NCBI GenBank assembly: GCA_029762595.1
Contig: JARVGJ010000010.1
Location: forward strand, 1 to 64,000
Reading direction: 5' to 3'
Length of the DNA stretch: 64,000 bases
Origin: Methanolobus sp.
Lineage (GTDB): Archaea > Halobacteriota > Methanosarcinia > Methanosarcinales > Methanosarcinaceae
The notes under the pieces are model-generated. The model did not search any database and was not told where the DNA came from. It saw nothing but the letters and a program-made list of their open reading frames with translations. How positions within the stretch are numbered: the first letter of the stretch is position 1; every line of letters begins with the position of its first letter. A program made the position numbers and the translations under genes. Shown here piece after piece: positions 5,620-32,213 of the stretch.

Positions 5620-6999
5620 TTAAAGACCGTAGTTCTCTGGCTTGAAGACCGGAACTTCTGCCTTGTACTTCTCCATGCATTCGGTTGCGAATGTTTCGGA
5701 CTCGGATGTAAGTGCCTCGAGTTCTGCGGTTGCCTTTGCAAGTGCGCCAAGCTCGAACTTAGTCATCTCAAGACCCTCGGAGGTGTTCAGGATGTTGCAG
5801 CATTCCATTGCAGCATTCTTTGCACGGAGGAAGATGTCCTCTCCGTCCTTTACGATTGCCTCTCCTACCTTGTATGCATTGTCGTATGCAAGGATGTAGG
5901 ACTGCGGGTCTCTGAACCTGTCAGAAGCCATAAGGAGGTCCCTGAGGATCTTCTCGTTACCGGATTTGAGTGCAGTGTTCATGAGTGCACAGTCGTAGTT
6001 GAGGGACTCGGACCAGCACTGTACGGTTGTACCACCGAATTCACCATGGTATTCAACGGATTCGTTTGACCAGAGGTCACAGCACTGCATGATAAGGTTA
6101 CCCATGACATCAGAGTGAGCACAGGTTGATGTCTTACCTTCAAAGGACATTGGCATACCTGTGATTCCCTTTATTATGATGTTCTCGTAACCACAGTCCT
6201 TACCCGGACCTGTTGCACCTGATTCGTATGCTGCAAGTGATCTTGCACCTGCGATCGTTCTTGCGACGATTGCAAGGGTGTGTGCAAGGTTCTTATCAAG
6301 GAGACCACCTGCAATGAACATTGCAGTGTTTGCCTGTGCACAGTCTGTGTCACCGGCTGCGGTTACTCCCTTCTGCTGTGCGACCTTTGCGATCTCCTGC
6401 CAGAGGTAGCTCATGTCCATGGTACCAAGGCAGCCGATAGAATAGAGCATACCTGGAACATCATTCCTGAGTACTGCGTAGTCGAAGATCTCTTTTCCAC
6501 CCATTGACTCAATGGACAGGAGGTCTGCGCCGCTCTCTGCAACCTGATCGAAGGACTCCATGACCACTGTCATCTTGTCGCCTCTAAGATCGAGGAATTC
6601 CTTGTTTTCCCTGATATCACCAGGTGTGTGTCTCAGTGCGCATTTGATCCCGTATTCTTCGTTGTACTCTTCCATGATGGTCTTCTGTGCGTGTGCAACA
6701 GCTGCTCCCCATTCAGGATTGTTGGTCATCTGCTGGACGTGTTCTGTCTCAAGTACTACGGATGGGAAACCGACCTGGACCATTCTTGACATGATGTCCT
6801 TTGTGATCCTCTGGTACTCGTTTACGAGTTTTTCCTTGGTTTCCCCGGCTTCCGGCCTTGGTGCATAGTTTACTTCTGCAGTTGTGTAGCCTGCACCGAT
6901 CTCAAGGTCAAGACCTGCTTTTACAGGTTTCTTTGCGCGTCCGAATACCATCTCATCAGCTTCGGCGTAAGCCATTGTTGTGAATCTGTTAATTGCCAT
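5620..6999 (-). CDS. mtaB: Methanol:corrinoid methyltransferase MtaB
   Basis: Transfers the methyl group of methanol to the Co(I) corrinoid of MtaC in the first step of methanol-dependent methanogenesis; cytoplasmic. From the start at 6999 the protein has 459 residues. The zinc ligands known for Methanosarcina MtaB fall at exactly the same numbers: Glu164 (in LSIESMGG), Cys220 (in GDTDCAQ) and Cys269 (in PGKDCGYE). That agreement, plus GAGGTGAC before the ATG, fixes the start; the 15 extra in-frame codons upstream, to 7044, overlap mtaC and are not used. It lies ten bases after the mtaC stop, with its ribosome site overlapping the mtaC end, so the two are translationally coupled. A terminator-like hairpin follows. 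Confidence 0.98.
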   Translation of the reverse strand: MAINRFTTMAYAEADEMVFGRAKKPVKAGLDLEIGAGYTTAEVNYAPRPEAGETKEKLVNEYQRITKDIMSRMVQVGFPSVVLETEHVQQMTNNPEWGAAVAHAQKTIMEEYNEEYGIKCALRHTPGDIRENKEFLDLRGDKMTVVMESFDQVAESGADLLSIESMGGKEIFDYAVLRNDVPGMLYSIGCLGTMDMSYLWQEIAKVAQQKGVTAAGDTDCAQANTAMFIAGGLLDKNLAHTLAIVARTIAGARSLAAYESGATGPGKDCGYENIIIKGITGMPMSFEGKTSTCAHSDVMGNLIMQCCDLWSNESVEYHGEFGGTTVQCWSESLNYDCALMNTALKSGNEKILRDLLMASDRFRDPQSYILAYDNAYKVGEAIVKDGEDIFLRAKNAAMECCNILNTSEGLEMTKFELGALAKATAELEALTSESETFATECMEKYKAEVPVFKPENYGL

Positions 7000-7009
7000 T
7001 TTTGTCACC

Positions 7010-7774
7010 TCAGTGGTTGTGGAATTTAGCTCTAAGGTCTGCAATATCTGCGCCTTTCAGGATAGCATCTGCCATCTTTGGTGCATCTGCTGCTTCTTCA
7101 CCATATACTCCAAGTGAGTATGTCTCAACGAAGTCCTGGTTCACAGCTCCGCCACCACATGCAAATGGAAGGCTGAGTCCACCCTCAACGAGACGGTCAT
7201 TGACCTCCTTGAATGCGTACATTGTGGTTGTCATAAGTGCTGTACCGGTGAGCATCATTGGCTTTTCCTTCTTTACGGCTTCAATAACTTCATCGACCGG
7301 ACAGTCACGACCAAGGTCGACCACTTCATAACCTGCTGCTCTGAGCAGAGCTGCGACAATTGACTTTCCGATATCATGTACGTCACCTTCGGCAACGTGT
7401 ACAACGATCTTGCCTTTTGTCTCAGGGCTTGCACCTGATTCAGCCTTACAGAACTCGATACCTTCAAGCATTGCATCTGCGGACATCATTACGTTTGGAA
7501 GGAAGATGACACCCTGATCGTAAAGGTCTGTGACTACCTTCATACCTACCATGAGTGCATCGTCAATGAGTGCAATTGGGTCCTTGCCTGCTGCAATAGC
7601 TGCTTCAAGACCTTCGATAACATCATCTTCTTCACCCTCAAAGATCGCTTCTGCAATAGCCTTGTATAACTCATCTTTTGGATAGAGTTCGGCTGCTGAT
7701 TCTTCGGGGGTCATTGTTTTTTCCATTTTAACATTGTATCTTATGAGGATACCTTCTTTGTCTACTATTAACAT
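7010..7774 (-). CDS. mtaC: Methanol corrinoid protein MtaC
   Basis: The 254-residue corrinoid protein carries the methyl group from MtaB to the MtaA/CoM step. An N-terminal helical cap (about residues 25-115) is followed by the cobalamin-binding Rossmann domain. That domain has the base-off ligand motif GDVHDIGKS (His133), TGTALMTTT and a GGGA turn near 213. It is the first gene of mtaCB and has a long AT-rich upstream region. The start is an ATG preceded by GGAGGTATAGA. A second MtaC-like gene of the same length lies 4 kb away (11843-12607). MtaA is not in the window. Confidence 0.97.
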   Translation of the reverse strand: MLIVDKEGILIRYNVKMEKTMTPEESAAELYPKDELYKAIAEAIFEGEEDDVIEGLEAAIAAGKDPIALIDDALMVGMKVVTDLYDQGVIFLPNVMMSADAMLEGIEFCKAESGASPETKGKIVVHVAEGDVHDIGKSIVAALLRAAGYEVVDLGRDCPVDEVIEAVKKEKPMMLTGTALMTTTMYAFKEVNDRLVEGGLSLPFACGGGAVNQDFVETYSLGVYGEEAADAPKMADAILKGADIADLRAKFHNH

Positions 7775-11842: not shown

Positions 11843-12607
11843 TCAATGCATATGGAACAGTTCCCTTAATTCCTCAATACTCTTCTTCTTGAGTATGAGA
11901 TCTGCGATCTTTGGCACCTGTGCAGCATCCTCACAATAGATACCCAGTTGGTAATTCATCACAAAGTCCTGCGTTACCGCACCACCTCCACATATGAATG
12001 GTATCTTTATGTTATTCTCAAGTAAACGGTTATTGACTTCCATAAAAGAATACATTGTCGTAGTCATCAGGGAAGTACCTGTAAGCATGATAGGCCTGTA
12101 TCTTAGCACAGCCTGGATAACTTCATCCGTTGGTACATCACTTCCCAGATCTATGACATCATATCCGTTGGATCTTAAAAGGACCGTTAATATTTTCTTT
12201 CCGATGTCATGAATATCCCCTTCTACAACATAGGAAACAACCGTTCCCTTGTATTCATGGCTCTTCCCTGATATCTGTTTACAGTATTCGATCCCATCAC
12301 TCATTGCATGGGATGAAATTATCACATCTGGCAGGAACAGAAGTCCGTCATCGTATAACTGGGACACTATATCCATTCCGGCCATCAGAGCATCATCTAT
12401 AAGGGAAATTGGATCCCTTCCTGCCTCAACTGCATCTTTAAGGGCAGCTATGACCTCATCTTCATCACCTTCAAAGACTGCCTCTACTACATTGCGCAGG
12501 AGGATGTCCGGAGGAAAAAGATCTCTTGCTACTTCATCCGCAGAGAGTTCACTCTCTAGTTTGACGTTGTACCTGACAAGGATACCTGTTGGATCTATAT
12601 CCAGCAT
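11843..12607 (-). CDS. Second MtaC-type corrinoid protein, no adjacent MtaB
   Basis: 254 residues, the same length as the MtaC at 7010-7774 and alignable end to end. It has the helical cap, the cobalt-ligand motif GDIHDIGKK (again His133), TGTSLMTTT and a GGGA turn. All cobalamin-binding features are intact, so it should bind corrinoid. No mtaB-type partner lies beside it. It sits alone behind its own upstream region, with AGGAGG-type sequence (aggaggctca, minus strand) before the ATG. It could serve the nearby MtaB, serve another MtaB elsewhere, or have a sensing role with the PAS protein. The conserved length argues against decay. Confidence 0.93.
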   Translation of the reverse strand: MLDIDPTGILVRYNVKLESELSADEVARDLFPPDILLRNVVEAVFEGDEDEVIAALKDAVEAGRDPISLIDDALMAGMDIVSQLYDDGLLFLPDVIISSHAMSDGIEYCKQISGKSHEYKGTVVSYVVEGDIHDIGKKILTVLLRSNGYDVIDLGSDVPTDEVIQAVLRYRPIMLTGTSLMTTTMYSFMEVNNRLLENNIKIPFICGGGAVTQDFVMNYQLGIYCEDAAQVPKIADLILKKKSIEELRELFHMH

Positions 12608-12807: not shown

Positions 12808-13176
12808 TCAATCCTCATTCCCGGCATCTTCCCACAGGCCAAAAAGATTTCCCTCGGTATCCAGACAGATAGCAAGATAACCCCAGCCCGGAACAGGCAT
12901 CTGGTTTATCACTTTGCCCCCGGCTTTTTCTATCTTATCGGAGTATTCTTTTATAGATGGGACCCCGATATAGCCGGCAATCCTCTGCTCTGGCTCACCA
13001 CGCAGACCCATTCCGCCACCTACCCCCTTTTCACCATCTATACCTGCCGTTTCAAAGAGATAATAGTCCATTTCAGGAGATGGTTTTTCAAATTTCCAGT
13101 CAAAAATGGAAGAATAGAACTTCTTTGCACGTTCAAGATCATCTGTTGGTATATCCATGTGAACAAATGTTGGCAT
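12808..13176 (-). CDS. VOC (glyoxalase/bleomycin-resistance fold) protein
   Basis: A 122-residue single VOC domain with the usual opening (FVHMDIPTDDLERAKKFYSSIF), a mid-protein VGGGMG loop and a closing acidic metal ligand region (LDTEGNLFGLWE). It belongs to the small glyoxalase-like proteins of unknown substrate. A GGGGGT ribosome site precedes the ATG. It stands alone, with its start facing the DMT transporter gene. Function beyond the fold cannot be stated. Confidence 0.85.
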   Translation of the reverse strand: MPTFVHMDIPTDDLERAKKFYSSIFDWKFEKPSPEMDYYLFETAGIDGEKGVGGGMGLRGEPEQRIAGYIGVPSIKEYSDKIEKAGGKVINQMPVPGWGYLAICLDTEGNLFGLWEDAGNED

Positions 13177-13287
13177 TTATAACCCCCGGAAAATATAGGG
13201 CTGAAAACTATTAATCATTTTGCTTGATCACTTTGCTTGCAGCAATGCACCAAATCCTTTATAGTCTATTCTGCCATTGCAAATCTG

Positions 13288-14199
13288 ATGAACCCGGGAT
13301 CTAAAAAACCATATGTGGAACTTATTACGGGTTCTGTGCTGTTTGGTTTGATGGGTGTTTTCGTTTTCTATCTCCAGGACATACCTACGGGCCCTCTGAT
13401 ATTCTATAAACAGCTTTTCGGTATTATTGCATTGTTTCTCTTCATGGTGATCACAGGAAAGCTGTCCAGGATAATTCCGCGCAAAAAAAAAAGATATCTT
13501 TTGCTGCTTGGCATAATTAACACCACAACACTTTTCGCATACCTTGTATGCATAAGGTATACCAGTTTTTCAGTTGCAATACTTATGCTTTATACGGCAC
13601 CAATGTATGTTACCCTGCTTTCACCAATGATACTCAAAGAAAGCATCAGGCGAAACGGGATAATTGCCCTGGTGCTCTCTCTTATCGGTCTTTTGTTCAT
13701 TGTAGACATAAACAATATAGCTGCAGGACAGATGATTGGAAGCTGGTACCTGATAGGAGTTGCAGCAGGAATACTATCGGGTTTTTCTTTTGGAAGCTCT
13801 ATTGTAGTTGTTCGTTATGTGAAAGACGAATATACAGGCATGACCCTGATATTCTGGTATACACTGATAGGTGTCATACTGCTCCTGCCCTTTGCCGGAG
13901 GAGTGCCGGTCCAGGTATTTGCAGACAATCTTAGCATGCTTGTATTGTTCGGTGTTGTAAATACCACAATGGCTGCACTATTGTTCATAAACGGCATCTC
14001 ACAGATAGAAGCACAGAAAGGAAGCATACTGGCATTGATAGAACCGGTAAGTGGTATCTTTTTTGATTACACCATTCTGCAAACACCGCTAATAGCCAAC
14101 ACCATAATAGGATGTATATTCATTTTACTTGGTGCCTACATTGCCATAACAGAAAAGAGTCCCCGCAGATTCGGAAAGTATTTCCGTGTTCAGGTATGA
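13288..14199 (+). CDS. EamA/DMT-family transporter
   Basis: About 303 residues with ten hydrophobic helices arranged as two EamA repeats (approximately 10-140 and 155-295), typical of drug/metabolite transporters; the exported or imported compound is unknown. The frame is open from a TTG at 13237, but the ATG at 13288 is preferred. It begins the family-like sequence (MNPGSKKPYVELITG), and a TATA-like box (cctttatag) about 25 bases upstream suggests a leaderless mRNA. There is no operon partner. Confidence 0.88.
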   Translation: MNPGSKKPYVELITGSVLFGLMGVFVFYLQDIPTGPLIFYKQLFGIIALFLFMVITGKLSRIIPRKKKRYLLLLGIINTTTLFAYLVCIRYTSFSVAILMLYTAPMYVTLLSPMILKESIRRNGIIALVLSLIGLLFIVDINNIAAGQMIGSWYLIGVAAGILSGFSFGSSIVVVRYVKDEYTGMTLIFWYTLIGVILLLPFAGGVPVQVFADNLSMLVLFGVVNTTMAALLFINGISQIEAQKGSILALIEPVSGIFFDYTILQTPLIANTIIGCIFILLGAYIAITEKSPRRFGKYFRVQV

Positions 14200-14366: not shown

Positions 14367-14702
14367 ATGAGGATGCTTGAAGAGTTCTTCCCTGAATTTA
14401 CTGAGAAACTTGATGAGATCGATGAAATGTATGCCCAAAAAAGGCCAATAGATGAAAAAACATATCAATTCCTGTGTTTTTCCCTTTCAATCAAAGCCAG
14501 GTCAAAACCATGCGTACTTAAACACTTTAAAGGTGCACTTGAGGCAGGTGCCACAGTAAAAGAACTTTCGTATATACTTGCACTCACAATGAGAGAAGCA
14601 GCAGGAGCCGATGACTGCTGGACACATGATGTTCTGGGTGACTGGAAAGAGATCCTGAAAGGAAACGTATGCTGCAGTTGTGCCGGTGATGATGAGAAAT
14701 AA
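14367..14702 (+). CDS. Carboxymuconolactone decarboxylase/AhpD-like protein
   Basis: A 111-residue helical protein of the CMD/AhpD superfamily: a helix pair around SIKARSKPCVLKHFKGALEAGAT, then ELSYILALTMREAAGA. In AhpD the active site is CxxCxxxH; here only the second Cys and the His remain (S-K-P-C-V-L-K-H). The C terminus carries CCSC, which may supply other thiols or bind metal. It is probably a small redox or structural protein; the substrate is unknown. A GTGGAG site lies upstream of the ATG. Confidence 0.8.
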   Translation: MRMLEEFFPEFTEKLDEIDEMYAQKRPIDEKTYQFLCFSLSIKARSKPCVLKHFKGALEAGATVKELSYILALTMREAAGADDCWTHDVLGDWKEILKGNVCCSCAGDDEK

Positions 14703-15018: not shown

Positions 15019-15351
15019 TCATTCTATCTCTTCGATAATTATTGGGATTTCTGCAATTTTCATTGCCAGACCCTTTGATATCTTTTCGTTTTCCACCCAG
15101 TATGCATTCATCACAGTTGGAGGAACATAACAATTATCGCATATCTCCTTCTTCATGCTCTTTACCAGCAGTTCATAGTAAGGGATAGTCTGCTGGGACA
15201 TTTCCACGTTCGGGAGATCAAAATCACAACCCCATTCTTGTAATTGCTGACAGTCCGTTTCAATATGGACATGTGTTTTCCTACCGTTGGAAACAGCTGT
15301 CACGAGGCTTTTATGCCCACATAACTGATTTACTGACATTGTTACAACCAT
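15019..15351 (-). CDS. Small cysteine protein, paralogue 1 of 4
   Basis: 110 residues. It shares a pattern with the three neighbours: an N-terminal QLCG box, a strand-rich middle with a Cys in IETDCQQL, a CDNCYVPP box and a C-terminal E-x-x-x-x-SKGLA stretch. The architecture (S-x-C-G-F, D-T-x-C, C-x-V-P-x-x-V, E-x-G/E) resembles a small Methanosarcinales family of unknown function (DUF6951-like, from memory). Four conserved Cys could bind a metal or cofactor. There is no signal peptide. GAGGAT precedes the ATG. It is transcribed together with paralogue 2 (33-base gap). Confidence 0.75.
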   Translation of the reverse strand: MVVTMSVNQLCGHKSLVTAVSNGRKTHVHIETDCQQLQEWGCDFDLPNVEMSQQTIPYYELLVKSMKKEICDNCYVPPTVMNAYWVENEKISKGLAMKIAEIPIIIEEIE

Positions 15352-15384
15352 GTCTTATCCTCTTTAACTCCCCTATTACCAGGA

Positions 15385-15726
15385 TTAACTGATCTCTTCA
15401 AACTTGATACTTATGGTTCTATACTCCGTTGCAATATCTTTGGGAATCTTTTCATTCTCTATCCAGAATGCATTCATGACTGTTGGAGGTACATAGCAAT
15501 TACTGCATATGGAATACATTTCCCGTTTCCTGTTAAGCAGGTCAAAAGATACATCCCTGTTCATCAGATCGATTTTTGGGATATTGAATTCGTTACCCCA
15601 TTTTTTAATTTTCTCACAGGTCGTATTCACAAAAATACGCGTATTTTTCCCTTCCTGCTGAGCTAATACGGTTGTCCTGTTCCTGCATATATTTTCCAGC
15701 GAAATGATAACTGTCACCACTACCAC
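15385..15726 (-). CDS. Small cysteine protein, paralogue 2 of 4
   Basis: Aligns with paralogue 1 through most of its length: Cys in ENICRN, Cys in VNTTCEKI, the shared box CSNCYVPPTVMNAFWIENEK, then a closing amphipathic strand. The frame is open to an ATG at 15750, but alignment with the paralogue places the start at one of a cluster of GTG codons (15726, 15720 or 15717). GGGTGG-like sequence overlaps them, so the exact start is uncertain. It is first in a two-gene minus-strand unit. Function unknown. Confidence 0.72.
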   Translation of the reverse strand: MVVVTVIISLENICRNRTTVLAQQEGKNTRIFVNTTCEKIKKWGNEFNIPKIDLMNRDVSFDLLNRKREMYSICSNCYVPPTVMNAFWIENEKIPKDIATEYRTISIKFEEIS

Positions 15727-15848
15727 CCATTTCCCGATTGGGCCAATCAATCTGCATGAAGGAAAACTTACTGCTCAAAAGTCCTGATCTGTCCGGAAGC
15801 ATCAGCTGGCAAGTGAACCAAATTGTGCAATGTATAATAGATATTGAA

Positions 15849-15966
15849 TTACGAATTTACTTAAACTTGCTGATTGGACTTTGCTTCTACTTAATAACAG
15901 AACTGCTGAAAATAAGACATTTACGAATTTAGACACAACGGTTTAAAGTCACCCTGACACAACGGT
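15849..15966. repeat. Phased direct repeats upstream of the second small-Cys pair
   Basis: gacacaacggt occurs at 15932-15942 and 15956-15966 (24 bases apart). ttacgaattta occurs at 15849-15859 and 15921-15931 (72 bases apart, three times 24). They lie in the divergent promoter region between paralogues 2 and 3. Regular spacing close to two helical turns suggests operator sites; this is inference. Confidence 0.5.
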
Positions 15967-16017
15967 GTAATCGATAACTATAATTAATAATACATTAAAA
16001 CATGAGAAGGAAACAGT

Positions 16018-16338
16018 ATGCCATCTGAAGTAAATGTGAATTCAGCAATATGCGGATTTAAACACAGTATCACCGGTCGTCTTGAAGGAAAGAATATCAT
16101 CACGGATATAGATACTAATTGCAGCAAAGTAGCCAAGATATCGCATATGGAAATACCAAAGAAAGAAATAATGAATATAAAAGAAAATTATGTGATGGAC
16201 CAGGCAAAAGATAGTTGTTGTGCAACATGTATTGTACCTGCAGGTGTGTTGCATGTATGTAATATGGAACGTGGAATGCTTTCAAAGACGCTGGCAAAGC
16301 AATCAGAAAGAGTGAGTATTGAATTCAATGAGAAATGA
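16018..16338 (+). CDS. Small cysteine protein, paralogue 3 of 4
   Basis: 106 residues, very similar to paralogue 4: SAICGFKH, D-T-N-C, a Cys cluster DSCCATCIVPAGVLHVC, then ERGMLSK. It has one or two more Cys than paralogues 1 and 2. It is soluble. AAGGAA lies upstream of the ATG. The stop overlaps the short leader of paralogue 4, so the two are co-translated. Function unknown; the conserved Cys suggest metal or cluster binding. Confidence 0.78.
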   Translation: MPSEVNVNSAICGFKHSITGRLEGKNIITDIDTNCSKVAKISHMEIPKKEIMNIKENYVMDQAKDSCCATCIVPAGVLHVCNMERGMLSKTLAKQSERVSIEFNEK

Positions 16339-16346
16339 GGAATAAT

Positions 16347-16670
16347 ATGACAACAACAGTAAGAGTAAATTCATCTGTCTGTGGTTTTACGCATAAGATT
16401 ACAGGAAAATTAGATGGAAAGAACATAATTATCGACATCGATACACCCTGTCAGAAAATAAAGGCTATGGAGCATATGGAAATCCCTATGATGGAAACCC
16501 TGGATATAAAAGATAATTTCGTCATGGATAAGGCAAAAGAAGCACAGTGTACTCCTATCTGCCTGGTGCCTGCCGGAGTGCTTCATGTATGTCGCATGGA
16601 AACAGGCATGCTATCTAAAAGCCTGTCAAAAAAATCAGAGCGGGTAAGCATTGAGTTTGATGAAGTCTGA
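16347..16670 (+). CDS. Small cysteine protein, paralogue 4 of 4
   Basis: 107 residues from ATG 16347, chosen because GAGG lies nine bases upstream and because MTTTVRVNSSVCGF then aligns with MPSEVNVNSAICGF of paralogue 3; four codons to an earlier ATG at 16335 are possible. Conserved boxes: SSVCGFTH, DTPC, CTPICLVPAGVLHVC, ETGMLSK. It begins within nine bases of the previous stop. Function unknown. Confidence 0.78.
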   Translation: MTTTVRVNSSVCGFTHKITGKLDGKNIIIDIDTPCQKIKAMEHMEIPMMETLDIKDNFVMDKAKEAQCTPICLVPAGVLHVCRMETGMLSKSLSKKSERVSIEFDEV

Positions 16671-16967: not shown

Positions 16968-17693
16968 ATGAAAGACTTGAAAGAAAGAAGCATGAAACTA
17001 TCGGCTCTTATGTCAGTGCTTTTAATTGCACTGCTGGTATGCGGTTGCGTGGGGGTTGACGATAATGGAGCTCAGGATGAACTACCGGGTAATAATGATA
17101 CCGCTGCTGAGGATGACACCACAGGCATTGTCGGGCCAGTCACAAATAAATATTCTGAAAGTGACAGTCTGAGTACAAGCTATGCCATCCCGGATGACAT
17201 CATCATTGTAACACTCAGGGAAAATCCAAGCACCGGCTACTTGTGGAACATGACATACAGTGAAGGGCTTGAACTTCAAGATGACAGCTATGAGCAGGAA
17301 GCAGGAACAGAAGGTATTGCAGGTGCAGGCGGTGTGCACCAGTGGACATTTGAAGTCATAGATACAGGAGAGCAAACAATATCTGCAGTTTACATGCGTC
17401 CGTGGGAAGAGGTCACAGGAAGTGAAGAAACGTTTGAAATGAGCATTATTGTCCTTGCAGAGCAGGAACTGATAAAGAGCCGTGGAACTGTGAAGTATAT
17501 TGAGCTTGAGGGTGGATTTTACGGAATAATAACTGCAGATGAAGCACGTTATGACCCAATTAACCTTGCAGAGAATCTCCGCAGTGATGGAATGGAAGTT
17601 GAATTTGTTGCTTACCCGCGAAATGACATCATGGGTTTTCACATGTGGGGACAGATAATAGAGATAAGGACCATTGATAAGATAAGTGATTAA
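16968..17693 (+). CDS. Chagasin-family (I42) protease-inhibitor lipoprotein
   Basis: 241 residues. A lipoprotein-type signal (LMSVLLIALLVCGC) suggests export and membrane anchoring. After an acidic linker comes a chagasin domain with all three inhibitor loops: NPSTGY, GAGGVHQW and RPWE, the loops that block the active site of papain-like cysteine proteases. About 70 further residues form an extra C-terminal domain I do not recognise. The ribosome site GAGGAG touches the ATG at 16968. TTG at 16977 or ATG at 16992 (giving the neatest signal peptide) are equally possible starts. The next gene, encoding a small acidic protein, follows 30 bases downstream. Confidence 0.88.
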   Translation: MKDLKERSMKLSALMSVLLIALLVCGCVGVDDNGAQDELPGNNDTAAEDDTTGIVGPVTNKYSESDSLSTSYAIPDDIIIVTLRENPSTGYLWNMTYSEGLELQDDSYEQEAGTEGIAGAGGVHQWTFEVIDTGEQTISAVYMRPWEEVTGSEETFEMSIIVLAEQELIKSRGTVKYIELEGGFYGIITADEARYDPINLAENLRSDGMEVEFVAYPRNDIMGFHMWGQIIEIRTIDKISD

Positions 17694-27415: not shown

Positions 27416-30208
27416 ATGGATAAGAAAATGCTAATCAAGTTATTTTCCGTATATCTCTTGTTATTGATAATCATTTTCATAATCTTGTTACACACATATA
27501 TACTGGAAGGCGAACAACAAGTTTTATGGCTGATCATTCTTGCATTAGCTATCGTTTCCATGATAGCCTATAACCTGAGAGTTACAGGTTTGAAGAAGGA
27601 TCTTGAAGCCGAGATAAAAAAGAACATGGGAAACCATGAAACCCTTAAGATAAAATATGAGATAGAGAACACATTGTCACAAATATCATCTCTCCTTGCA
27701 TTTTCAGATGATCCGGACGAGAAGATAGAAGAGTCACTTGCATTGCTTGGACGATTATTTAATGCTGACAGAGCCTATGTATTCAAATTACGTGATCACG
27801 GAAAAATCATGGACAATACCCATGAATGGTGTGCTGAAGGGGTCAGACCACAAAAGGATAATTTACAATCGATTCCAAGCTCTGAGTATGCCTGGTGGAT
27901 GAAAAAGACATATAATGACGAAATGATCCGCATCAGGTATCTGGATGAACTTCCACCTGAGGCAGAGGCTGAAAAAGAATTACTTGAAAAACAGGAAATT
28001 GAATCACTCATTGTTCTTCCCTTTAAGATAGAAGGTGAACCTGCAGGATTTATCGGGTTTGACAATGTCGAAGAAACAAGAGACTGGAACCTGGACGATA
28101 TTAAGGTGTTAAAAACTTTCGCTAACATACTTGGTATGGCCTTTAGAAAAAAAGCAATATCAAAGGAGCTGGAACTGGAAAAAGAACAATTATTGTCTGT
28201 TTTTGACAGTATAGATGAGCCCATCTGCGTATCTGACATCTGTACCCACGAAATTCTTTATGTCAATAAATACCTGAACACAAAGTTCAATGAAAACGTG
28301 ATCGGCAAAAACTGTTATAAGATTATATATGGATTTGATGAGCCCTGTGTTTTTTGTACAGACGTGACGCTTGTTAATGATCACAGCAAGGTTCAAAAAT
28401 GTGAATATCACAATCCTCTTACATCTCGTGATTATATTATCTCTGCCAGGTCAATCAAATGGACAAATGGCTGTGATGCACGTCTTGAAATTGCCCACGA
28501 TATCACAGAAATAAGGGCCACAGAAAGAGCCCTCAGGGAAAAAGAAGAAAATTTCAAGAAGCTTATCGATAATTCGCCTTTGCCCATCGGTATAATGAAT
28601 TCAAATAGTCATTTTGAATACTGGAATAAAAAATTCACTGAAATGTTTGGGTATACTTCACAAGATATGCCAACGATCAAAGAATGGTGGGAACTATTCT
28701 ATCCCGACAGCCAGCACAGGAAAGAGGCCTTTGATGAATGGGTACACTTTTTAGAACATAAAGATACGGGATTTAGCGAACGGACCGTTATATGCAAAGA
28801 TGGAACAGAAAAGCAGATAGCATTCTACTTCACAAGAACAAATAATAGCATTGTTTTTATCCTGAATGACCTGACAGTTCTTAAAAGGACAGAAGAAGCA
28901 CTCAAAGTTGATGAATCATGTCTTGAGAGCCTGTATGAACTAAGCCAGATGAATATTCTTTCAACTGAACAGATAAAATCCTTCGCACTGGAAGAAGGGA
29001 TGGAACTGACAAAAAGTGACATTGCTATTCTTGTATTTTTCAATGAGCGAGAACAGAGGTTCATTGCAGACACATATCCTTCAGACCTCTTTGCACGAAA
29101 CAAGATCAATGAAGAGATATTTATATCCTTACTCGAAAGTTCGGATATGTGGCTGAGGTTACGGGAAAGTAGAAAACCTGTGTTCTTCGATGAGGCACAA
29201 AATACGGATCAATCACCTGGGTTTGCATTATTCAGAAAGCTCTCCGTTGATTCATTCCTTGCTGTGCCAATCCTGAGCGAAAATAAGACAGCGGGATTTG
29301 TGATTGTTGCGAATAAGGATGGTGAATACAGCTTTTCTGATGCCAGGCAACTTAGTCTCATTGTACAGATGATGGGAAGAATAATATTGCTGAAACGCTG
29401 GGGAGATGAGCTCAGGAAGTATAACCGGGAACTAATGGATATAAACAAAGAACTTAGCAGAGCAAACGAAGAGCTGCATTCTCTTGATGAGCTGAAGAAC
29501 AACTTCCTCTCAACCATAAACCATGAACTGAGAACACCACTCATTTCTATCATGGGGTTCAGCGAGCTGGTCGGGGACGAAATACTGGGCCCTCTGAGTA
29601 AGGAGCAGAAAAAAGCTATGGACGTGGTCAACCGTAATGCAGGACAATTGAAACGCCTGATAGACTCATTATTGTTTATGAGCTCTCTGGAAGCGAGGGA
29701 ATACCGATATGATCTTGCCCGTCTTAAACTGGAACCTATAATCGAGAAGGCATTATCACTAATAGAGATGGAAAACACAGATAAAAAACTTATCTTAAGT
29801 AATGTCCTGTCCGATGACATGAACTTTGTAAATGGTGATCCTAATTACCTTAGTGAGATGTTCATCCACCTTATAGATAATGCATTCAAGTTCACACAAT
29901 CTGGTGGAAGGGTCTGTATTTACGGTTACAATGAAGAAGATATGATCCACATCATTGTAGAAGATACAGGAATAGGGATTCCGGAACCAAAGATAATGAG
30001 GACATTTGATAGTTTCCACCAGCTTGACGGTTCCCTGTCACGCAAATACGGAGGAGCAGGTATTGGCCTGAATATCTGTAAAAGGATTGCTGAAGACCAT
30101 GGAGGAAAACTCTGGATAGAGAGTGAGGAAGGAGTGGGAACAAAAGTGCACATCACACTTCCTGCAATACAAGAACATACAGACCCTAGTCTTTCAGGAT
30201 CATCATAG
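27416..30208 (+). CDS. Membrane PAS/GAF sensor histidine kinase
   Basis: 930 residues. Two hydrophobic helices at the N terminus (about 5-25 and 33-50) give membrane attachment with little outside. Then GAF (80-245), PAS (255-372, containing a NCYKI...EPCVFC cysteine pattern that may bind a redox cofactor), PAS (378-498), GAF (505-665), a coiled linker, HisKA with His703 (STINHELRTP) and HATPase (DTGIGIPEP, GGAGIGLNICKR). No receiver domain is present and no response regulator lies adjacent, as is common in methanogens. The last 23 bases overlap the 3' end of the convergent hydantoinase-like gene. Confidence 0.93.
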   Translation: MDKKMLIKLFSVYLLLLIIIFIILLHTYILEGEQQVLWLIILALAIVSMIAYNLRVTGLKKDLEAEIKKNMGNHETLKIKYEIENTLSQISSLLAFSDDPDEKIEESLALLGRLFNADRAYVFKLRDHGKIMDNTHEWCAEGVRPQKDNLQSIPSSEYAWWMKKTYNDEMIRIRYLDELPPEAEAEKELLEKQEIESLIVLPFKIEGEPAGFIGFDNVEETRDWNLDDIKVLKTFANILGMAFRKKAISKELELEKEQLLSVFDSIDEPICVSDICTHEILYVNKYLNTKFNENVIGKNCYKIIYGFDEPCVFCTDVTLVNDHSKVQKCEYHNPLTSRDYIISARSIKWTNGCDARLEIAHDITEIRATERALREKEENFKKLIDNSPLPIGIMNSNSHFEYWNKKFTEMFGYTSQDMPTIKEWWELFYPDSQHRKEAFDEWVHFLEHKDTGFSERTVICKDGTEKQIAFYFTRTNNSIVFILNDLTVLKRTEEALKVDESCLESLYELSQMNILSTEQIKSFALEEGMELTKSDIAILVFFNEREQRFIADTYPSDLFARNKINEEIFISLLESSDMWLRLRESRKPVFFDEAQNTDQSPGFALFRKLSVDSFLAVPILSENKTAGFVIVANKDGEYSFSDARQLSLIVQMMGRIILLKRWGDELRKYNRELMDINKELSRANEELHSLDELKNNFLSTINHELRTPLISIMGFSELVGDEILGPLSKEQKKAMDVVNRNAGQLKRLIDSLLFMSSLEAREYRYDLARLKLEPIIEKALSLIEMENTDKKLILSNVLSDDMNFVNGDPNYLSEMFIHLIDNAFKFTQSGGRVCIYGYNEEDMIHIIVEDTGIGIPEPKIMRTFDSFHQLDGSLSRKYGGAGIGLNICKRIAEDHGGKLWIESEEGVGTKVHITLPAIQEHTDPSLSGSS

Positions 30209-32120
30209 GGTTACCTATGCCAACGACTATCACCCGTGTTTCCAGGGGAGGATGGGACCAGTTGCCCGGAGACATGGTCTTTTTGGACACGCTGATCCTT
30301 GTATCCTCTTTCAGTATACCGCAGCGCATCTCGTAATCAAGAACAAGCTCTTTTCCAAGTCTTGTTGCAAATTCAACTGCGTCACCATATCCTTTAAACC
30401 GTTCTCTTCCAATGGGGGAAAACACCAGGAAATCCTCATCCGGATTCTCGATTGAAGCGGGCATTATTGATATCTCTATCCTCTTGACCCCTTTTCCTGC
30501 AAGGGCTCCAACAGCGTTTCCTACATCTGCGAACTCCGGTACCAGCACATCTGCCTCGATAAGGGACCTGAGTTCACTGTCATATGCACTGGCAGGTCCT
30601 CCCAGCAATACAATCGGCAGCTCTACTTTAAACCTGGCCGGATACTTGTGGCTTAGAAGGTCTGATATGATCCCTTGCGGATGATGGGGGAGGATGTAAG
30701 ACATCAGGTCTGCTGCCATGTTCTTTGCTACAAGCTCCTTAACATGCGTGCAGAAATCATATTTTCCTTTGCCCGTATATCTTGAAAGGTTCATTGCCCC
30801 TATATCAGCTGCATTCACATCCCATTTTGTGTAAATGCCCAGCACGTGCAGCGCATCCGTTGGTGTAAAACCAACGCCCTGTATAAGTCTTTTCTTCTGC
30901 AGGGAATCCAGTACTTTTGTTGATGTGTTCCTATTCAATGCAGCAGATATTTCTGCAGAAGATACCGGTTCCTTACCTATGAAGGAAAGTACGCTCCTTT
31001 CCGTATCATCTATAACTGAGGACTCATAAGCTGTCCTGACAAAGAACTTTGTTGGCTGGATGTTCTCATCCATAAGACCCCTGGAAACAACTCTGCTTCT
31101 TTTCAGTGTGTTTAAGAAATCAGGATATATCTTTGATGCAACACAAAGGGGGATTACCCGTCTTGGACCAATCCTCACACGGTCCTCGCTTATCCAGATA
31201 TGGCTGTCCCCCCCTGTTGCAGAGGTTTCCATCTTCATGGCCCTGACACGTGTCTTCCAGCCCCCTACCACTGCACCTGAAGAGCTAATTTCAGGAACAC
31301 CACTGCTCAGCATGGAGACATCAGTGCTGGTCCCGCCGATATCTATCACAGCGCAGGTTTCCATCTTTGCCAGATAGGAGGCTCCAAGGAGGCTGGCAGC
31401 AGGTCCTGAAAAAATCGTTTCGATGGGACGCTCCAGAGCATCTTCGATGTTGTAGACAGAACCATCGCATTTCAGCATCAGAAGACGTGCATCTATTCCC
31501 CTTGAGCTTATGTCCTTTACGACAGAATTAACAAACTGGTATGTGATGGGAATCAGCTGCGCATTAAGGACAGCTGTTACTGCCCTTTCATAAGCACCAA
31601 GCTCCTGGGACAGTTCATGTCCGCACACTACTGGCATTGCGGTCATTTCCTTTATAAGGTCCTTCACCTTTAATTCATGCTCCGGATTTCGAACTCCGAA
31701 ATATGCCGAAACCGCATATGCTGAAACCTTGTTCCTTGTCCCGTTAATAAAATCCTCAACAGAAGAAAGATCAAGTTCAAAGGCCTCATCACCCCGTGTG
31801 TTATGGCCACCTGCAACGTATAAGGTGTACTGTGAAGGAAAATCAGTCTGTGCAGGTTGCTCTCCAACGATAATAAGAGCAACATCCGTCCCTGTACCCT
31901 CAAGCAGTGAATTGGTTGAAAGTGTTGTTGATACAGATACGAGATTCACATTTTTAAGAAGGTCCTGATCAAGCGAATCAAGTACATTCTTTATACCTTC
32001 CTGTAGATCAGGATATGTCGTGAACGTCTTTTTTGAATCCACGACTATCCCATCTGACCCCCTTATTAATACTGCATCTGTATAGGTACCACCTGCATCA
32101 ATACCAAGACCATAGTGCAC
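30186..32120 (-). CDS. Hydantoinase/oxoprolinase-like ASKHA ATPase
   Basis: About 644 residues. The N-terminal hydantoinase A domain opens with GLGIDAGGTYTDAVL (phosphate-1 loop), followed by VSVSTTLSTN and CAVIDIGGTSTDVSML (phosphate-2). A winged-helix-like segment (EPVSSAEISAALNRNTS) lies near residue 400 and a VLLGGPAS adenosine motif near 535. It is a member of the acetate/sugar kinase-Hsp70-actin fold; no hydantoinase B partner is present. The substrate is unknown. The GTG at 32120 with GGTGAT before it is chosen over an upstream ATG at 32189. Confidence 0.85.
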   Translation of the reverse strand: MHYGLGIDAGGTYTDAVLIRGSDGIVVDSKKTFTTYPDLQEGIKNVLDSLDQDLLKNVNLVSVSTTLSTNSLLEGTGTDVALIIVGEQPAQTDFPSQYTLYVAGGHNTRGDEAFELDLSSVEDFINGTRNKVSAYAVSAYFGVRNPEHELKVKDLIKEMTAMPVVCGHELSQELGAYERAVTAVLNAQLIPITYQFVNSVVKDISSRGIDARLLMLKCDGSVYNIEDALERPIETIFSGPAASLLGASYLAKMETCAVIDIGGTSTDVSMLSSGVPEISSSGAVVGGWKTRVRAMKMETSATGGDSHIWISEDRVRIGPRRVIPLCVASKIYPDFLNTLKRSRVVSRGLMDENIQPTKFFVRTAYESSVIDDTERSVLSFIGKEPVSSAEISAALNRNTSTKVLDSLQKKRLIQGVGFTPTDALHVLGIYTKWDVNAADIGAMNLSRYTGKGKYDFCTHVKELVAKNMAADLMSYILPHHPQGIISDLLSHKYPARFKVELPIVLLGGPASAYDSELRSLIEADVLVPEFADVGNAVGALAGKGVKRIEISIMPASIENPDEDFLVFSPIGRERFKGYGDAVEFATRLGKELVLDYEMRCGILKEDTRISVSKKTMSPGNWSHPPLETRVIVVGIGNPMMILKD

Positions 32121-32213
32121 CGTATCACCTTGTTTAAAGATTAAAATTACTTTTAATACAATGCCTGATGTATATATAAACGTAATCATTTCAATTTTTT
32201 TTAAAACACCTGC

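Follow-up and report, generated by a model that had tools for sequence, protein, structure and literature searches.

What is the function of four related, small cysteine proteins whose genes sit together in a Methanolobus genome? The genes, here named A, B, C and D, form two same-strand pairs placed back to back at positions 15019-16670 of the window, that is, of the whole 64,000-nucleotide stretch of DNA that was analysed (Table 1). A sequence-only reading had described them as four paralogs in two divergent pairs, and this description proved correct: a search with family models placed all four in the Pfam family PF22263 (DUF6951) with scores above its curated cut-off of 27 bits, so the matches are not due to chance. 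NCBIfam models gave no match to A-D at E values up to 1. A-D belong to a known but unstudied family; we found no paper naming DUF6951 or PF22263 and no proposed function in the literature.

Table 1. The four DUF6951 genes and the annotated genes around them (positions in the window)
Feature	Position	Strand	Remarks
MtaB methanol:corrinoid methyltransferase	5620..7044	-	NF040651, 808.5 bits
MtaC of mtaCB pair	7010..7774	-	NF040655, 453.1 bits
Lone MtaC-type corrinoid protein, no mtaB beside	11843..12607	-	NF040655, 442.9 bits (cut-off 420); B12-binding domains
VOC/glyoxalase-fold protein	12808..13176	-	PF00903, 38.4 bits; conserved neighbour
EamA-family transporter	13237..14199	+	PF00892, 110 bits; conserved neighbour
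AhpD/CMD-like protein, Cys-rich C-terminal tail (CCSC)	14367..14702	+	PF02627, 20.5 bits, below the 23-bit cut-off; conserved neighbour
A, DUF6951 paralog	15019..15351	-	110 aa; the three Cys constant in the family are 11, 34 and 74; PF22263, 35.4 bits
B, DUF6951 paralog	15385..15717	-	110 aa from likely GTG; ORF call begins 15750; PF22263, 38.9 bits
C, DUF6951 paralog	16018..16338	+	106 aa; PF22263, 68.5 bits
D, DUF6951 paralog	16335..16670	+	111 aa; Cys 16, 39 and 76 are the constant three; PF22263, 84.9 bits
Chagasin-type protein	16968..17693	+	PF09394, 92.5 bits; frequent neighbour in Methanolobus

The four-way alignment of A-D contains 13 invariant columns, three of them cysteines. Among the motifs that had been listed for these proteins, the T-x-C strand and the C-x-V-P-P/A-x-V box occur in all four. 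The C-G near the start is found in A, C and D but is C-R in B, and the S-K part of the E-x-G/E-x-x-S-K stretch is present in three of the four, B carrying P-K instead (ENEKIPK). The cysteine pattern just ahead of the C-x-V-P-P/A-x-V box is C-x-x-C in A and B, C-C-x-x-C in C and C-x-x-x-C in D. Since the orthologs of B begin with MTVIISLENIC, its start is most likely the GTG at 15717 rather than the TTG at 15750; the likely start of D is the ATG at 16347. Compared with their orthologs, A-D have dN values of 0.06-0.20 and dS values above 1.1 or saturated, i.e., their divergence is strongly synonymous, and from these comparisons all four look to be under purifying selection.

The family is widespread in the group to which the host belongs. 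Of 237 genomes of the class, 105 contain DUF6951; at least 102 of these belong to the family Methanosarcinaceae, which contributes 111 genomes. A draw of 392 genomes from the phylum gave 81 with DUF6951. The closest named relatives of D come from Methanolobus and unclassified Methanosarcinaceae. A viral or plasmid origin of A-D was rejected, as no DUF6951 relative was found among IMG/VR viral contigs or PLSDB plasmids. Besides the four copies, the host genome contains one remnant on another contig (locus L064, 8381-8587; genome G000, contig 9, 36386-36622), which is interrupted by two TAA stops and is 48% identical to D.

The sequence-only reading took the tandem and divergent expansion as a sign of an active role, perhaps tied to dosage or a specific partner. 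In a tree of 67 rows, built on few columns (105), A and B formed one clade with one Methanosarcina sequence (support 100/99), while C and D each formed a clade with their orthologs (100/99 and 99/90, respectively). Because each of the four paralogs clusters with its own orthologs from other Methanolobus genomes, the duplications predate these species; together with the identity of only ∼25% between A or B and C or D, this argues for old duplications and leaves a recent expansion, with its dosage role, unsupported. Homologs of A were present in 9 of 27 Methanolobus genomes, every one with an adjacent homolog of B, and this retention of A and B as a unit would fit a partner-specific role. The order of the A-B pair relative to C and D differs in other loci of Methanolobus, so the back-to-back layout of the window is only one of several in which these old paralogs are found.

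We then aligned 164 distinct DUF6951 members from the retrieved loci and counted residues column by column, using the numbering of D. Cysteine occupies position 16 in 162 members, position 39 in 163 and position 76 in all 164, the remainder being gaps, and P79 is proline in all 164. Conservation in the wider family, on which the earlier suggestion of metal binding depended, was therefore found for three cysteines, gaps aside; others are variable (C72 in 115/164 and C86 in 135/164). In the predicted fold, one constant cysteine is in the loop that joins strands 1 and 2, one closely follows strand 3 and one closely precedes the long helix.

AlphaFold (AF2) models were obtained for D from 57 rows (pLDDT 92.9, pTM 0.87) and for A from 28 rows (pLDDT 82.0, pTM 0.78). 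Both models show three strands, a short helix and a short strand, followed by helices. Foldseek placed human ISCU and E. coli IscU on top of the matches to D, with E values of 0.03-0.14 and none below 0.001, and returned no IscU among the best 50 matches to A. After re-ranking with VIA-align, IscU/SufU chains filled rows 1-22 for D (Z of 6.0-5.2, rmsd of 3.0-4.1, 81-92 residues) and rows 1-18 for A (Z of 5.5-4.8). The best IscU row exceeded the best unrelated row by less than 1 Z (6.0 versus 5.2 for D and 5.5 versus 4.8 for A), which is a tie by the rule of the tool. What speaks to us for an IscU-like predicted fold is the agreement between the models of A and D, two proteins that are only ∼25% identical.

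The alignment with E. coli IscU (3lvl) runs from residues 2-97 of D to 23-126 and from residues 1-94 of A to 26-126. By arithmetic on these ends, with no residue alignment, C37 of IscU maps to D residue 16, itself a constant cysteine, and to A residue 12, next to the constant cysteine at 11; C106 maps to D residue 77, next to the constant cysteine at 76, and to A residue 74, itself a constant cysteine. The cysteine numbering of IscU and the role of its ligands Asp39 and His105 are taken from the part of PMC13423590 consulted. In DUF6951, Asp at the position of Asp39, two residues past the first cysteine, and His before C76, at the position of the IscU histidine, each occur in 0 of 164 members.

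Sequence comparisons gave no link between the two families. A-D had no match to PF01592 (NifU_N) at E values up to 1, and hhalign of DUF6951 against a NifU_N alignment (Neff 4.1) gave a probability of 0.6%, and one of the 26 control families did better. Of 100 column shuffles, 16 reached an equally high score, and the reversed profile surpassed it. A sequence search of the PDB returned nothing near significance (best E value of 0.057). Sequence homology to IscU thus found no support from two hhalign profiles and the column shuffles. As no significant profile link emerged, we do not claim membership in the IscU family and speak of an IscU-like predicted fold. The host genome has two PF01592 matches, both on other contigs and away from the DUF6951 genes.

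To characterize the genomic neighborhood, 83 DUF6951 regions were compared with 80 random 8.4-kb regions from 20 complete Methanosarcinaceae genomes, all scored by tblastn. The 83 regions are those of the 111 representatives with full 8.4-kb flanks (28 were dropped) and include distant families; relatedness among them was partly handled by collapsing them to 34 regions below 70% identity. Corrinoid or methyltransferase genes were present in 38 of 83 DUF6951 regions versus 4 of 80 random regions (P = 6e-10; collapsed, 11/34, P = 2e-4), and ars genes in 16 of 83 versus none of 80 (P = 9e-6; collapsed, 2/34 versus 0/80, P = 0.087). The strongest neighbors were AhpD-like genes, found in 35 of 83 regions versus none of the random ones (P = 6e-13; collapsed, 10/34, P = 2e-6). 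The collapsed counts show broad links to corrinoid and AhpD genes and a link to ars genes that depends on a few clades. Counted from the side of the arsenic genes, at least 26 of 85 ACR3 genes and at least 48 of the 150 ArsP genes listed lie near DUF6951, versus 0.8 and 1.1, respectively, expected under uniform placement. In 41 of the 111 representatives, no ars, RamA/UroD/chaperonin or AhpD neighbor was present within 4 kb (MtaC was left out of this tally), so the theme does not span the whole family.

Pfam and NCBIfam models named three kinds of recurrent neighbors: AhpD/CMD-like proteins, an ars set (ArsR/SmtB regulator, ArsP-type permease, ACR3 over its cut-off, MTH895/ArsE thioredoxin-like protein and DGC protein) and a corrinoid set (RamA-type activase over its cut-off, UroD-type methyltransferases, a B12-UroD fusion, MtaC-type and MtrA-like proteins). 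These sort by clade: one clade has ArsP, ACR3 and an MtrA-like corrinoid protein, and others have RamA, UroD-type methyltransferases or MtaC. Colocation with ACR3, ArsP, ArsR or ArsE holds for the DUF6951 genes of Methanosarcina-type clades. Short MtrA-like corrinoid genes (L057, 9200-9748; L060, 8448-8996; L135, 8360-8908) are convergent with the DUF6951 genes of the ars clade at distances of 48-284 bp.

Several operons have the gene order RamA, DUF6951, UroD, and in six operons the gap between a RamA-type activase gene and the DUF6951 gene behind it is -4 to about 50 bp. An uncharacterized operon at L041 (607-10579), with similar ones at L043, L045, L047 and L071, encodes a B12-binding/UroD fusion, a hydantoinase-like protein, a thermosome-like chaperonin (Cpn60_TCP1), UroD, a RamA-type activase, DUF6951 and UroD. 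The chaperonin group (neighbor cluster 22) had been a candidate glycine-betaine methyltransferase, an assignment that was rejected, and cluster 4, considered as "PASb," turned out to be the MtaC-type corrinoid protein. In the part of PMC6855144 consulted, which deals with the glycine betaine pathway, hydantoinase, thermosome and uroporphyrinogen are not mentioned.

In the window itself, the distances from A are 317 bp to the AhpD-like gene, 2.4 kb to the lone MtaC gene and 7.2 kb to mtaCB. The lone MtaC gene is flanked by the VOC gene and a gene for a 1020-aa PAS-domain sensor-like protein, and it is conserved in other loci of Methanolobus; it lies 1.1-2.5 kb from the same DUF6951 group in 12 further loci, some of which are one genome under two locus identifiers. 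No ars gene (ACR3, ArsP, ArsR or ArsE) is located beside the window's DUF6951 copies, and no activase was found among their annotated neighbors. Farther away, at 30186-32189, a 667-aa protein has an N terminus that resembles, by eye, the hydantoinase-like proteins encoded in operons with RamA.

The possible metal or cluster binding raised by the sequence-only reading receives indirect support from the constant cysteines, the IscU/SufU-like fold predicted for two paralogs and the corrinoid and arsenic neighbors. We propose, giving it about an even chance, that DUF6951 assists corrinoid methyl transfer, and arsenic handling in relatives, as an accessory that binds a metal, metalloid or cluster through thiolates. 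DUF6951 proteins are small and probably cytosolic and have an IscU/SufU-like predicted fold, in which the three constant cysteines may meet in space as one thiolate site that does without the Asp and His of IscU. Candidates for a thiophilic center held by such a site are an Fe-S cluster, which would suit RamA and RACo; Zn, which would suit the likeness to SufU; and As(III) or methylarsenite, of which As(III) would agree with the three thiolates and with the ars operons. The protein would serve corrinoid methyl-transfer systems as an accessory or carrier, and the copies in Methanosarcina-type ars operons would handle arsenic. In the window, all four copies are part of an AhpD locus, with the lone MtaC 2.4 kb from the closest copy. 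Weighing against the proposal are the modest fold scores, the lack of a significant profile link to NifU_N, the 41 representatives without the neighbors in question, the few clades behind the ars link, the lack of an ars gene beside the window's own copies and the annotated recurrent neighbors, among which we identified no cysteine desulfurase.

The best placed of the alternatives, which we still regard as unlikely, is a dedicated Fe-S scaffold or carrier that builds or delivers the clusters of RamA- or RACo-type corrinoid activases and perhaps of other Fe-S proteins of the same operon. Apart from the IscU-like predicted fold, it draws on the RamA-type activase, which carries Fer4 domains and in one clade is immediately upstream of DUF6951, and on a RACo that carries a Fer2 domain and lies at a distance of ∼4.7 kb in locus L088. 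According to the part of PMC13423590 consulted, a D40A/H106A variant of IscU (7C8O) still carries a [2Fe-2S] cluster on its cysteines alone, and this structure is the first row in the ranking for D. However, a scaffold leaves both the ars operons and the activase-less locus of the window unexplained, the recurrent neighbors that were annotated include no identified cysteine desulfurase, and a true NifU_N protein over the cut-off already exists in 101 of the 111 genomes of the family.

The prominence of AhpD-like genes among the neighbors could instead indicate a thiol redox protein or protein-protein adaptor that has no bound metal and has the AhpD-like protein as its partner. The AhpD tails are rich in cysteine, and in the ars-type loci L057, L059, L067, L123, L126 and L133 they are poly-Cys tails such as CCCCCED. 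Yet two constant cysteines, not three, would suffice for a simple redox pair, and the near match of the cysteine places to those of IscU would be left without explanation; we consider this reading doubtful and rank it below the scaffold. The weakest alternative, a Zn-bound SufU-like persulfide carrier whose cysteines take up sulfur and hand it on with no metalloid held, could claim SufU 6jzv among the top matches of D (Z of 5.8) and the SufE-type CsdE among those of both D and A, but the Asp after the first cysteine is missing in all 164 members and, as for the scaffold, the annotated recurrent neighbors yielded no desulfurase, making it very improbable.

Within the proposed thiolate accessory role, a narrower version is that an IscU-fold protein without Asp and His has turned into a three-thiolate carrier of trivalent or methylated arsenic that links corrinoid methyl transfer to arsenic efflux. 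We regard this version as a long shot, ranking behind the adaptor and ahead of the persulfide carrier. ArsP exports methylarsenite. Methylotrophic methanogens are reported to demethylate dimethylarsenate in paddy soil, and the part of PMC10579292 consulted names no methanogen gene dedicated to this reaction. A protein with three thiolates, encoded next to ArsP and corrinoid genes, would be a candidate for it. If true, the arsenic-carrier version could account for a piece still lacking in arsenic (de)methylation by methanogens. More generally, the widespread DUF6951 family gains a testable role from its IscU-like predicted fold, its Cys-only site and its position next to corrinoid and arsenic genes. 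We found no paper that joins "IscU-like," methanogen and corrinoid.

Among known systems, Pfam DUF6951 is the one to which A-D belong by sequence, and it is a family without known function. ArsD and ArsR are As(III) thiolate proteins. They resemble DUF6951 in their three thiolates, and some DUF6951 relatives reside in ars operons, but A-D have no Pfam sequence match to them and As binding by DUF6951 is putative. From IscU/SufU/NifU_N, DUF6951 differs by the absence of Asp39 and His105 equivalents, of a PF01592 match and of significant profile similarity, and by a shorter spacing between the second and third constant cysteines (median of 37 versus 44). It resembles them in that they are the top structural match, by less than 1 Z, for the predicted models of two paralogs, A and D, two of its constant cysteines fall within one residue of those of IscU, as judged from the alignment ends, and the third, C39, appears to be in the matching spot past strand 3.
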